Shown: in pieces, positions 58,069-62,082 of the stretch
Numbering within the stretch: the first letter of the stretch is position 1
Layout: each line of letters starts with the position of its first letter
Source of the DNA: Allobosea sp. Root483D1
Lineage (GTDB): Bacteria; Pseudomonadota; Alphaproteobacteria; Rhizobiales; Beijerinckiaceae
Assembly (NCBI RefSeq): GCF_001429505.1
Contig: NZ_LMJW01000001.1
Location: 1,118,606-1,182,605, forward strand
DNA length: 64,000 nt
Direction: 5' to 3'
Notes under the pieces: model-generated
Seen by the model: only the letters and a program-made list of their open reading frames with translations
Told to the model about the DNA's origin: nothing
The model's database searches: none
Program-made: the position numbers and the translations under genes

Positions 58069-58875
58069 TCATACGGTGAGCACCGCCGAAGTCAGCAATT
58101 GCGTGTAGGCGTGCTGGGGATCGTCGAGGACCTGGTCGGTCAGGCCCTGCTCGACGACGCGGCCATCCTTCATCACCATCAACCGGTCGGTGAGCAGGCG
58201 GGCGACGGCGAGGTCATGGGTGACGATGATCGCGGCGAGGCCGAGATCGCGCACCAGCACGCGCAGCAGGTCAAGCAGGCGGGCCTGGACGGAGACGTCG
58301 AGGCCGCCGGTCGGCTCGTCCATGAAGACGAGCTTCGGTTCGGAGACCAGCACGCGGGCGATCTGCAGGCGCTGCTGCATGCCGCCGGAGAACTGGCGCG
58401 GCCGGTCGTCGATGCGGTTTCCGGCGATTTCGACGCGCTGCAGCCAGTCGAGCGCGGTTTCGCGGATTTTTCCGTAATGGCGGGCGCCATTGTCCATCAG
58501 CCGCTCGCCGACATTGCCGCCGGCCGAGACGTCCATGCGCAGGCCGTCGCGCGGGTTCTGGTGGACGATGCCCCAGGCGGTGCGCATCAGCCGGCGCCGC
58601 TCCTGCTCGGCGACCGAATAGATGTCGAGCGGTTCGGCTCCGCCACGGAACAGAACCTCGCCCTCGTCAGGCTTGTCGATGCCGGCGAGACAGCGCAGCA
58701 AGGTCGACTTGCCCGAGCCGGATTCGCCGACGATCCCCAGCACCTCGCCCGGCCAGAGGTCGAAGGAGACATCGGCGCAGCCGATGCGCTCGCCATAGAA
58801 GCGGCTGACATTGGCGACGGAGAGCAAGGGCTCGGGATCGAGCGTCAATTGCTGCGGATTGACCTGCATGTTCAT
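58069..58875 (-). CDS. phnK: Phosphonate C-P lyase system protein PhnK
   Basis: 268-residue ABC-type ATPase that docks on the PhnGHIJ core. Walker A GESGSGKST is near residue 50, the signature FSGGMQQRLQIARVLVS near 163, and Walker B VFMDEPTGGLD near 185. It is coupled to phnJ by a 4-base ATGA overlap. Confidence 0.95.
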   Translation of the reverse strand: MNMQVNPQQLTLDPEPLLSVANVSRFYGERIGCADVSFDLWPGEVLGIVGESGSGKSTLLRCLAGIDKPDEGEVLFRGGAEPLDIYSVAEQERRRLMRTAWGIVHQNPRDGLRMDVSAGGNVGERLMDNGARHYGKIRETALDWLQRVEIAGNRIDDRPRQFSGGMQQRLQIARVLVSEPKLVFMDEPTGGLDVSVQARLLDLLRVLVRDLGLAAIIVTHDLAVARLLTDRLMVMKDGRVVEQGLTDQVLDDPQHAYTQLLTSAVLTV

Positions 58876-59792
58876 GGCTTATCCTCGACCAGATGCAGCG
58901 CCGAGGCGTCGGCGAGCATCGCGCCGCGATGGCCCTCGGCCCGCCGCGTCTCGCAATGATGGCTGTCGGAGCAGACGAACATCCGCCCGCCCTGGTCGTC
59001 GATCACGACCTCGTCGAGATAGGAATCGGCCGCGCCGCAGAGGGCGCAGGGCTGCTCCCAGCTCTGGATCCGGAAGGGGTGATCCTCGAAATCGAGGCTG
59101 CGTACGCTGGTGTGCGGCGGCACGGCATAGATGCGCTTCTCGCGGCCGGCGCCGAAGAGCTGCAGCGCAGGCGACATCTGCATCTTCGGATTGTCGAATT
59201 TCGGGATCGGCGAGGGCGCCATGACATAGCGGCCATTGACCATGACCGGGTAGTCATAGGTCGTCGTCACCTCGCCGAAGCGGGCGATGTTCTCGTAGAG
59301 CTTGACCTGCATTAGCCCGTATTCGGCCCAGGCGTGCATTTTGCGCGTCTCGGCCTCGTGCGGCTCGAGCTTCCTGAGCGGCTCGGGCTGCGGCACCTGA
59401 TAGACCATGATCTGCCCGCTTTTCAGCGGCGCCTCGGGGATGCGGTGGCGGGTCTGGATGATCGTCGCCTCGTCCGTCGCCTCGGTCGTCCTGGCGTCGG
59501 CTGTGCGTTCGAAGAAGCGGCGGATCGAGACAGCATTGGTGGTGTCGTCGGCGCCCTGGTCGATGACTTTCAGCGTATCGTCGGGGCCGATGATCGCGGC
59601 GGTGACCTGGATGCCGCCGGTGCCCCAGCCGCGGGCGAGCGGCATCTCGCGCGAGCCGAAGGGTACCTGGTAGCCCGGCACGGCGACGGCCTTGAGCAGC
59701 GCGCGGCGGATCATCCGCTTGGTCTGCTCGTCGAGATAGGCGTAGTTGTAAGCCGGCTTGGCGTCGTCGCTGATGCTCTGGTGCACGGTCAT
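58872..59792 (-). CDS. phnJ: Alpha-D-ribose 1-methylphosphonate 5-phosphate C-P lyase
   Basis: 306-residue radical SAM enzyme that breaks the carbon-phosphorus bond. The unusual cluster motif CX2CX21C is exact: Cys249, Cys252 and Cys274. A further Cys (280) matches the catalytic Cys near the C-terminus, and Gly40 in AVPGYQVPFG matches the glycyl-radical site. All key residues are therefore present. Overlaps: ATGA with phnI upstream and ATGA with phnK downstream. Confidence 0.97.
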   Translation of the reverse strand: MTVHQSISDDAKPAYNYAYLDEQTKRMIRRALLKAVAVPGYQVPFGSREMPLARGWGTGGIQVTAAIIGPDDTLKVIDQGADDTTNAVSIRRFFERTADARTTEATDEATIIQTRHRIPEAPLKSGQIMVYQVPQPEPLRKLEPHEAETRKMHAWAEYGLMQVKLYENIARFGEVTTTYDYPVMVNGRYVMAPSPIPKFDNPKMQMSPALQLFGAGREKRIYAVPPHTSVRSLDFEDHPFRIQSWEQPCALCGAADSYLDEVVIDDQGGRMFVCSDSHHCETRRAEGHRGAMLADASALHLVEDKP

Positions 59793-60985
59793 TCCGCGGC
59801 CTCCGGCAGGGCTTGGTTCGCTTGATCGGCGAGACGCTCCTGGCGTTCCTGCCGCTCCTTTCGGATGCGGCGGATCAATTCGAGCTCGCCTTGGAAATCG
59901 ACATAGTGCGGCAGCTTGAGGTGCTCGACGAAGCCGGCCGCCTCGACATTGTCTGAGTGGTAGAGGACGAACTCGTCCTGCTGGGCCGGATAGGTCGCCG
60001 CCTCGCCGAACTCGCGCGCCTTCAGCGCCCGGTCGACCAGCGACATCGACATCGCCTTGCGCTCGCTATGGCCGAAGGAGAGCCCATAACCGCGCGTGAA
60101 CTGCGGCGGCACCTCCTTGGAGCCGGCGAACTGGTTGACCATCTGGCATTCGGTCAGGGTGATCTCGCCGAGATCGACGGCAAAGCCGAGTTCTTCCGGT
60201 ACGAACTCGACCGCGACCTCGCCGACGCGAACCTCGCCGACGAAGGGGTGGCTGTTGCCGAAGCCGCGTTGCACGGAATAGCCGAGGCCGAGCATGAAGC
60301 CCTCGTCGCCGCGCGCCATCGCCTGCAGCCGGACATCGCGCTCGGCTGGGAAGGTGACGGGCTCGCGGGTCAGGTCGAAGGGCCGCGGATCGCCTTCGGG
60401 GGGCGTTTCCTCTTCCATCAACCCCTCGGCGCCGAGGATATCGGGCACGCGCGGCATGAAGGCGTCGAGGGGTTTCACGTCATGCTCGGGCTTGACCCGA
60501 GCATCTCCTGCCGTGTTTGCGCTGGAGGCGCCCTCTTGTCCTGAGATGGTCGGGTCAAGCCCGACCATGACGTCCGGGGAATCCATCAGCGAAAAATCGA
60601 AGAGCCGGTGGGTGTAGTCATAGGTCGGACCGAGCACCTGGCCGCCGGGCAGGTCCTTGTAGGTTGCCGAGACGCGGCGGCGGATCGCCATCTTGGCCGT
60701 GTCGAGCGGCTCGGACGAGCCGAAGCGCGGCAGCGTCGTGCGATAGGCCCGCATCAGGAAGGCGGCCTCGATCGCATCGCCCTGAGCCTGCTTCAGTGCC
60801 AGCGCCGCGAGATCGGGATCGTAGAGCGAGCCTTCGTTCATCACGCGAGCGCAGGCCAAACCCATCTGCTCACGGATCTGCGCGACAGCGAGCTCCGGTA
60901 CGCCCTCGTCGCCGCGGCGCGCCTCGGCAACGAGATCATGGGTGGCGAGGATGGCGGCTTCGCCGCCCTTGACCGCGACATACAT
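59789..60985 (-). CDS. phnI: Carbon-phosphorus lyase complex subunit PhnI (with repeat insertion)
   Basis: 398-residue subunit of the C-P lyase core, the nucleosidase that transfers phosphonate to the ribose of ATP with PhnG, PhnH and PhnL. Family landmarks are VKGGEAAI at the start, KDLPGGQVLGPTYDYTHRL near residue 110-130, LTECQMVNQF near 275 and FVEHLKLPHYVDFQ near 360. Between RLFDF and MPRVPDILG, about 32 residues (138-170; MVGLDPTISG ... RVKPEHDV) are encoded by a palindromic repeat (60477-60573) and have no family counterpart. The frame is intact, so a longer surface loop is expected. The ATG at 60985 sets the family start; ATGA overlap with phnJ. Confidence 0.94.
   Translation of the reverse strand: MYVAVKGGEAAILATHDLVAEARRGDEGVPELAVAQIREQMGLACARVMNEGSLYDPDLAALALKQAQGDAIEAAFLMRAYRTTLPRFGSSEPLDTAKMAIRRRVSATYKDLPGGQVLGPTYDYTHRLFDFSLMDSPDVMVGLDPTISGQEGASSANTAGDARVKPEHDVKPLDAFMPRVPDILGAEGLMEEETPPEGDPRPFDLTREPVTFPAERDVRLQAMARGDEGFMLGLGYSVQRGFGNSHPFVGEVRVGEVAVEFVPEELGFAVDLGEITLTECQMVNQFAGSKEVPPQFTRGYGLSFGHSERKAMSMSLVDRALKAREFGEAATYPAQQDEFVLYHSDNVEAAGFVEHLKLPHYVDFQGELELIRRIRKERQERQERLADQANQALPEAAE
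60477..60573. repeat. Palindromic dispersed repeat inserted in frame within phnI
   Basis: 97 bases with 31-base inverted arms (60477-60507 and 60543-60573) differing at two positions, around a 35-base centre. Bases 60478-60510 are identical to 47076-47108 in the phnD-phnE gap. The element keeps the phnI frame open and adds about 32 residues, in the manner of the palindromic elements described inside Rickettsia genes. Confidence 0.85.
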
Positions 60986-61007
60986 CAGTAAAGCTCCCGG
61001 CGGGGCA

Positions 61008-61610
61008 TCAGCGGGCCCCCACGATTTGGGTCGAGCGCGGCAGGCCAAGCGCCTGCGTGCCATGGACCAGCAGCAGGTCGATGCCGAGCGGATAGAGCGT
61101 GGCGTTGCCCTCGACCTCGGCCCAGAAGCCGGGGCGCAGCCCGGCAGGAGCGATCGTCCGATGGCCGGCGATGCCGGGACCTTCGAGCGTGACGGCCTCG
61201 CCGCCTTCGAGCCCGCCGCATTGGACGAGCACCGTGGTCGAGCGATCGGGGAACTGGTCGTCACCGGCGTTGAAGGAGGCGAGCTTCGGTTCGCTTGCAG
61301 CGCCGTCGATCACGGCGAAGGCGGCTCGAGAGGGTTCCTCGACCAGCGCGGCGCCGCAATGGAAGCGCAGCCAGGCGCCGGCGGGGCCGTCGCGCAGGGC
61401 GACCGGCAGCCAGATCGGCGTTTCATAATCGGCGAGCGTCAGCAGCGCGACCGCCGTTGCGGGTTCGAGCCCGGTCGGGGCTTCGATCGCATCGCCAAGA
61501 TCGCGGGCAAGGCCAGGCTCCGAGAGCGCTGCCAGCAAAGCGCGGAATGCGCCTTGCGACTGGAAAACCGGGTCGGAGAAGCCGGCATGGATCTGGTTGC
61601 CGTCCTGCAT
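61008..61610 (-). CDS. phnH: Phosphonate C-P lyase system protein PhnH
   Basis: 200-residue core subunit with a PLP-transferase-like fold but no PLP role. GFSDPVFQSQGAFRALL near residue 8-24 and GFWAEVEGNATLYPLGIDLLL near 160-185 are typical. The frame extends upstream through phnG in another frame; the ATG at 61610 (MQDGNQIHAGF) follows the phnG stop by 2 bases, which supports coupling. Confidence 0.92.
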   Translation of the reverse strand: MQDGNQIHAGFSDPVFQSQGAFRALLAALSEPGLARDLGDAIEAPTGLEPATAVALLTLADYETPIWLPVALRDGPAGAWLRFHCGAALVEEPSRAAFAVIDGAASEPKLASFNAGDDQFPDRSTTVLVQCGGLEGGEAVTLEGPGIAGHRTIAPAGLRPGFWAEVEGNATLYPLGIDLLLVHGTQALGLPRSTQIVGAR

Positions 61611-61612
61611 CG

Positions 61613-62053
61613 TCACGCTCCCCTGACCAGGGTGAAGAAGTCGACCTTGGTCGCCGCCGCCTTGCGTGAGGCGAGGTCGCGGGCGGCCTGCTGCTTCTGC
61701 GCCAAGGCAAAGACACCGCGCCGCAGCGGGCCGGTCTCGATTTCGCCCTGGAGAAGCGCGTCGGTGATCGCCGCCAGCCGCGCCTTCCGGCCGTCGCGGC
61801 CGAGAGCATAGGAGAAGCCCATCGCGCCGCCTTCGAGCCGGACCACGCAACGCGTCACCGTGGCCTCGCCGAGATTGAAGCGGCGGCCGGCGCCGCCGGC
61901 GCGACCTTCGACCATGACGGTGCCGGTCTCGGGCGCCTTGAGCAGTTCATGCGTCGGCAACGGGCCGCCTTGCTGCAGCAAAGCGTCGATCTCGCCTTGC
62001 GTGGCACGGGCCAGGACTGCCATCCAATGCTGGCGTGTCGCGATTTCCGTCAT
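61613..62053 (-). CDS. phnG: Phosphonate C-P lyase system protein PhnG
   Basis: 146-residue core subunit that with PhnH, PhnI and PhnJ forms the C-P lyase complex. RQHWMAVLARA near the start, the strand FNLGEATVTRCVVRL near 68 and GFSYALGRDGRKARLAAITDAL (seen in parts) near 87-108 match the family. The frame opens seven codons earlier; the ATG at 62053 (MTEIATRQHW) is the family start. First gene of the lyase operon, 88 bases from the divergent phnF. Confidence 0.92.
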   Translation of the reverse strand: MTEIATRQHWMAVLARATQGEIDALLQQGGPLPTHELLKAPETGTVMVEGRAGGAGRRFNLGEATVTRCVVRLEGGAMGFSYALGRDGRKARLAAITDALLQGEIETGPLRRGVFALAQKQQAARDLASRKAAATKVDFFTLVRGA

Positions 62054-62082
62054 GCCGTGTCGGCCTCTCGCCAAGCGCTAAT

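Follow-up and report, generated by a model that had tools for sequence, protein, structure and literature searches.

Palindromic repeats carrying a CGTC tag form a published superfamily of REPs. As described in the passages of Di Nocera et al. 2013 (PMC3733652) on which we draw, the unit comprises the CGTC tag, a stem of 9 bp that begins with AT and a loop of 5 nt, the published ranges being 8-9 bp for the stem and 4-5 nt for the loop, with a short unpaired tail that is mostly CCA, and head-to-head dimers predominate. The same passages record no known dedicated transposase, place some copies inside genes, including those of tRNA synthetases, count RPE-4 and RPE-6 of Rickettsia as CGTC REPs, and remark that recB of X. 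campestris and that of X. oryzae have different REPs in roughly the same position. RPEs, according to parts of PMC3733652 and PMC10969869, are palindromic repeats that lie in frame in Rickettsia proteins thought to be functional. QMITE1 and QMITE2 of Coxiella are presented in portions of PMC5896051 as MITEs of 150-400 bp with direct repeats at their ends, some of them overlapping genes.

The element analysed here lies in phnI, within the C-P lyase operon of a 64,000-nt stretch of DNA that we call the window. Its family, named A below, is like the CGTC REPs, as far as those passages of PMC3733652 go, in tag, stem, loop, head-to-head dimers, in-gene copies and the fact that no Y1 (RAYT) transposase was found. 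Like the RPEs of the parts of PMC3733652 and PMC10969869 cited, the phnI element is palindromic and in frame in a gene thought to be functional. It is also, like QMITE1/2, a short repeat of a kind found in some genes, but it has no definable target duplication (compare the portions of PMC5896051). The term 'phn' is absent from the main text of PMC3733652, and the open literature searched gave no report of PhnI insertions in Bosea or of such palindromic repeats in Bosea, by which we do not claim their absence from print. That several unrelated families have used a single linker across a genus exceeds the two-species remark on recB, the nearest precedent in the passages of PMC3733652. This multi-family occupancy is our main finding, and it goes beyond the single sequence from which a first-pass annotation of the window was made.

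An in-frame repeat in phnI

The features concerned are as follows.

60477..60573, minus strand: two-hairpin, head-to-head CGTC-type REP dimer, in frame in phnI; inverted repeat of 31 nt, 94%
60543..60571, minus strand: hairpin 1 in phnI sense, coding VMVGLDPTIS; 0 mismatches to GTCATNNTCGGGCTTGACCCGANNATSTC (G000:C1:1179148-1179176)
60508..60542, minus strand: variable interior between the hairpins
60479..60507, minus strand: hairpin 2 in phnI sense, coding DARVKPEHD; 0-mismatch match (G000:C1:1179084-1179112)
59789..60985, minus strand: phnI, the carrier gene, 398 aa; PF05861, E 1.2e-159; E. coli PhnI, 1.6e-128
58872..59792, minus strand: phnJ; PF06007, E 1.1e-147
61613..62074, minus strand: phnG; TIGR03293
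61008-61850, minus strand: ORF containing phnH; TIGR03292
58069-58875, minus strand: phnK; TIGR02323
57324-58022, minus strand: phnL; TIGR02324
56185-57324, minus strand: phnM; TIGR02318
47077..47151, plus strand: second family-A copy in the window, 75 nt, directly after a TAA codon

The first-pass annotation had proposed a 97-base element with 31-base arms and two mismatches in frame in phnI, and this is confirmed: arms of 31 nt (60477-60507 and 60543-60573), 94% complementary, enclose 35 nt, for a total of 97 nt. Compared with dinucleotide shuffles the element folds with z -7.4 as DNA and -7.7 as RNA, and 0 of 200 shuffles were as good in either case. Each arm also forms a hairpin by itself: its stem has 9 bp, its 5-nt loop is CTTGA and its tag is CGTC. 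Read from the sequence, the two positions at which the arms mismatch are paired within their respective hairpins, so that the unit is better seen as two inverted hairpins than as one simple stem. An Rfam search of 59700-61300 returned three matches, all far under gathering scores.

PhnI of the window covers positions 1-347 of the 348 of the Pfam PhnI profile and aligns with the E. coli PhnI chain in two blocks (query 1-137 with 1-137; query 178-379 with 153-352). The insert sits between them, which bears out the earlier placement of some 32 residues between two conserved blocks. The element is predicted to encode about 31-32 residues (PhnI about 139-170). The linker has 52 residues, compared with 30 in seven plain relatives of the same clade; as the difference is only 22, roughly nine native linker residues seem to have been lost next to the insert. 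Just downstream of it, the phnI coding DNA holds a native inverted repeat of its own (60420-60433 / 60461-60474; 14 nt, 93%), and similar inverted repeats occur in some plain linkers, for example in loci L072 and L171. The AlphaFold model of PhnI is poor (mean pLDDT 68.5), and its stretch below 50, residues 112-166, would suit a disordered linker, though it is wider than the insert. With this model the sole Foldseek matches at E 0.001 or better were two E. coli PhnI chains, with rmsd near 13 A; nothing on the PhnI linker appears in the passages used from PMC9947105, a paper on the structure of C-P lyase.

The C-P lyase genes round the element are complete, PhnF, G, H, K, L and M having been identified together with PhnJ, in agreement with the intact operon claimed earlier. 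Among the 15 genomes of the genus that carry family A in phnI, differences in the PhnI core amount to 28.3% at 4-fold sites and 6.5% at the residue level. The core is thus under purifying selection, and the insert-bearing phnI looks functional, as had been thought probable.

A dispersed family with few copies in genes

The short-hairpin pattern was searched, with up to 3 mismatches, through the 6.6-Mb window genome (G000). It gave 136 matches, which are half-sites and not whole copies, and its reversed control gave 0. The 110 loci round the listed matches contain, close to their centres, at least 97 distinct family-A copies, and the element therefore belongs to a dispersed palindromic repeat family. 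Among the matches listed, 90 of the 97 copies are two-hairpin dimers of 71-110 nt, many of them with a longer loop in the second hairpin, and 91 carry the CGTC tag. In the 9-bp stems of these listed copies the first pair is A-T in 95/97 and the second T-A in 97/97, 862 of 873 cells are paired (858 Watson-Crick, 4 G-T) and compensated variants are present; the loop has 5 nt and reads CTTGA in 72/97. Because the search pattern already had this shape, the agreement of stem and loop is partly built in.

The 3-nt tail of family A is CTC in 89/97 of the copies listed, in contrast to the CCA of most CGTC REPs in the passages of PMC3733652; some relatives, G037 among them, do have a CCA tail. Judged by these features, family A fits the published CGTC-REP superfamily except for its tail. 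The window genome gave 0 matches to the Y1 transposase (PF01797), for which 5 of 14 control genomes were positive. With a CGTC tag in 91 of the 97 listed copies and no Y1 transposase gene, the family does not belong to the RAYT-mobilised GTAG REPs. In the manner of an RPE, the repeat lies in frame in a conserved, functional-looking phnI and is dispersed elsewhere.

Copies inside genes were sought with a rule by which the best coding frame on both sides must be the stop-free frame running through the copy. The rule, whose codon model was trained on the window and the family-A loci, gives an estimate without gene calls and would overlook any copy that disrupts the frame of its gene. By this rule 1 of the 97 listed copies, that in phnI, is in a gene and in frame; a looser threshold was passed by 4/97, the other three of which have better coding frames on the opposite strand. 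The earlier proposal of a mobile palindromic family that spreads into coding DNA thus holds for the dispersal, whereas by this rule its in-gene copies are rare here. This genome of 6.6 Mb, from a genus that we take to be free-living, also differs in kind from that of Rickettsia, the obligate intracellular host of RPEs.

Alternative repeats in the PhnI linker

PhnI is present in 58 of the 61 genomes of the genus, taken to be Bosea. The linker, defined as the stretch between ...FDFxLM and MPRVPDILGA, was extracted by script from 83 loci, a set that contains named duplicates and outgroups, and the 58 linkers were sorted by eye from peptide and arm sequences.

Family A: 15/58 linkers; 49-56 residues
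Family A remnants: 2/58 linkers; 30 and 40 residues
Family B: 8/58 linkers; 40-72 residues, one without the first half
Family C: 4/58 linkers; 41-42 residues
Family D: 1/58 linkers; 67 residues
Composite, partly B-like: 1/58 linkers; 85 residues
Plain linker: 27/58; 27-32 residues, six of them in a divergent PhnI clade

Four outgroup PhnI linkers have 28-29 residues, which matches the plain length, and the plain form is taken as ancestral for this reason. The first-pass annotation had suggested showing that the insertion is absent from related strains; it is not private to this strain, as 15 of the 58 PhnI-bearing genomes carry it. These carriers do not merely keep the residues without the palindrome in the DNA: paired arms of at least 20 nt are present in 14 of the 15, the exception being G060. 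Occurrence of family A in the same place in 15 genomes, the fact that none of the 83 loci showed a stop codon near the linker and the purifying selection on the core make an assembly artefact or a dead gene, for which no support was found, extremely improbable.

The arms of all four families are dispersed in the genus, those of A in 58 of the 61 genomes, B in 53, C in 24 and D in 26, with reversed-pattern controls summing to 0, 0, 1 and 5, respectively. In BLAST comparisons between linkers, the best hits listed among A, B, C and D inserts span about 55-58 nt, which is the size of the shared conserved flank, and in G048 the D insert shows 84-87% identity to the four D copies that match it best in the rest of the genome. 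On this evidence, B, C and D are palindromic families unrelated to A that occupy the same linker.

We consider it likely that a repeat entered a tolerant PhnI linker, which then served as a permissive slot, holding A, other families, nothing or partial deletions. One family-A copy, a head-to-head CGTC-type REP dimer, would have entered between the N-terminal and the main PhnI block in an ancestor within the genus. It would have been kept, through tolerance rather than benefit, owing to one stop-free reading frame and to a linker that may be flexible enough to bear extra residues. Alleles with A, with three unrelated palindromic families, empty or partly deleted would then have become interspersed among species, different families arriving by separate insertions and copies of one family spreading by inheritance with loss or by allele exchange.

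Possible descent, exchange or insertion

A phnI DNA tree without the linker was built from 62 rows by a quick method; 26 of its 59 inner branches are open, and one of the four outgroup rows (L105) is placed inside the ingroup. The linker types are scattered over this tree, slightly more clustered than shuffled labels: the seven labels need 25 changes, compared with a shuffled mean of 28.3, and values as low arose in 8 of 200 shuffles. Well-supported branches alone force at least 4 changes each for A and B and at least 2 for C, where each change may be a gain or a loss. Such scatter, together with the many arms that are near their family consensus, would agree with a recent insertion of its own in every carrier, in place of descent or exchange. 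We think this improbable, since all 15 family-A inserts share orientation, frame and hairpin-2 stem, and their interior alone is nearest to another phnI copy in 14 of the 15 carriers (exception G025), the comparison set from elsewhere being 79 interiors of the window genome. The best matches of the whole A inserts are likewise other phnI copies, to which the conserved flanks contribute; the intergenic copies used for comparison represent the window genome plus a few loci in each of five other genomes or fewer, not every carrier.

In family A, distances between inserts follow those between cores (Mantel r 0.46, p 0.0002); in B they do not (r 0.02, p 0.35). On both sides of the G000 insert the sequence is nearest to its own clade, and no long exchanged tract was seen around it, a search made in G000 and G005. 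For G005, the first 68 nt downstream favour neither side, with a mean identity of 0.864 to own-clade rows and 0.855 to other A rows, where 'own-clade' includes one B carrier (G049) and 'other A' includes G000, of the same clade. These patterns suit, and do not prove, a history in which each family entered once and was then inherited, lost and to some extent exchanged.

Repeats in ileS, glyS and outside phnI

In G049, 70 loci yielded 74 records and 64 distinct family-B copies, three of which satisfy the in-gene rule, in phnI, ileS and glyS. A further copy, at 1527-1662 of L370 (G049:C2:97700-101000), has an open, coding-like frame running through it and fails the rule. In ileS (isoleucyl-tRNA synthetase) of G049 a 115-nt palindromic repeat is in frame, at 1607-1721 of L379 (G049:C14:8300-11600), with related loci in L382 and L383. 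Similar repeat-coded peptides occur at the same point of the ileS linker in 3 of 30 loci (G049, G004 and G059), the arms having been checked in G049. The other 27 comprise two with other long inserts (G026, G034), one of 41 residues and 24 of 28-31 residues. The glyS repeat of G049 is also in frame, at 1635-1749 of L352 (G049:C14:113700-117000). A similar insert lies at the same point in G049, G040, G030, G008, G058 and G020, and elsewhere in the gene in G048 (L411-L416); in the six genomes other than G049, the identity of the gene as glyS rests on shared flanking residues and not on a family search. The ileS and glyS loci were chosen because they matched, and they give no rate. Among 12 of 23 other matches to an insert-bearing query that were checked in relatives, none had both flanks best coded in a through-running frame.

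That at least four families unrelated in sequence are found in one linker, while 96 of the 97 listed A copies fail the in-gene rule, could mean that the linker is a preferred target of insertion beyond mere tolerance, for example by way of the native stem-loop at 60420-60433 / 60461-60474, the like of which some plain linkers share. This seems to us unlikely: phnI is not unique, as relatives have inserts in ileS and glyS too, and selection against in-gene insertions elsewhere would yield the same excess.

A control site outside phnI was followed from 1540-1629 of L249 through the orthologous loci L281-L310, and palindrome families there differ between species. The anchors could be placed in 16 of 30 loci, with family A in 7, other inverted-repeat families in 8, most of these with GTCAT...ATGAC ends, and a longer unrelated stretch in 1 (G023). 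That the repeat family can change at a single position is therefore not peculiar to phnI.

Variation within the insert

Variation in the hairpins of the 15 A carriers was compared with that in 324 core windows of ten codons each. At 4-fold sites, hairpin 2 differs by 5.0%, compared with 28.3% for the core, and 0 of the 324 windows is as low; over all nucleotides, 12/324 are as conserved. Hairpin 1 differs at 17.7% of its 4-fold sites, and 46/324 windows are as low. The residues coded by the hairpins differ by 20.5% (hairpin 1) and 9.8% (hairpin 2), more than the 6.5% of the core, as expected of a tolerated insert. In the alignments of B and C the arms appear, by eye, less variable than the interior.

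The low 4-fold difference of hairpin 2 may reflect selection on the hairpin. Along these lines, the hairpins would be kept for an effect on phn mRNA or DNA (transcript stability, pausing or processing) with the peptide as a side effect; since any strong palindrome could do this, the occurrence of unrelated families at the same place would be accounted for. The near invariance of hairpin 2 and the steadier arms of B and C speak for such an effect. We nevertheless find it doubtful, because 27 of the 58 PhnI have no such element, hairpin 1 is unremarkable, hairpin 2 is less exceptional over all nucleotides, and at the control site, too, the repeat family differs from species to species. Moreover, recent insertion, or conversion from other copies, would mimic the hairpin-2 pattern, and the species, being related, are not independent. 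A combination of the two readings, with a multi-allelic slot filled and refilled by unrelated palindromes and a hairpin useful in the phn message, so that selection on nucleotides keeps hairpin 2 and the peptide is neutral filler, appears to us similarly unlikely.

Implications

The element in phnI belongs to a repeat superfamily already in the literature, and repeats lying in frame in proteins have precedents. The general idea of the first-pass annotation, a mobile repeat giving rise to a tolerated loop, is partly supported. Repeated occupancy of one enzyme linker by several families across a genus goes beyond the literature examined. That literature treats in-frame palindromic repeats one gene at a time; in the present genus, one linker in a core enzyme presents at least four unrelated families besides plain forms and partial deletions. 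These natural linker alleles of one pathway, which can be assayed by growth on phosphonate, make it possible to ask whether the insertion of a repeat into a protein is tolerated, targeted or useful.
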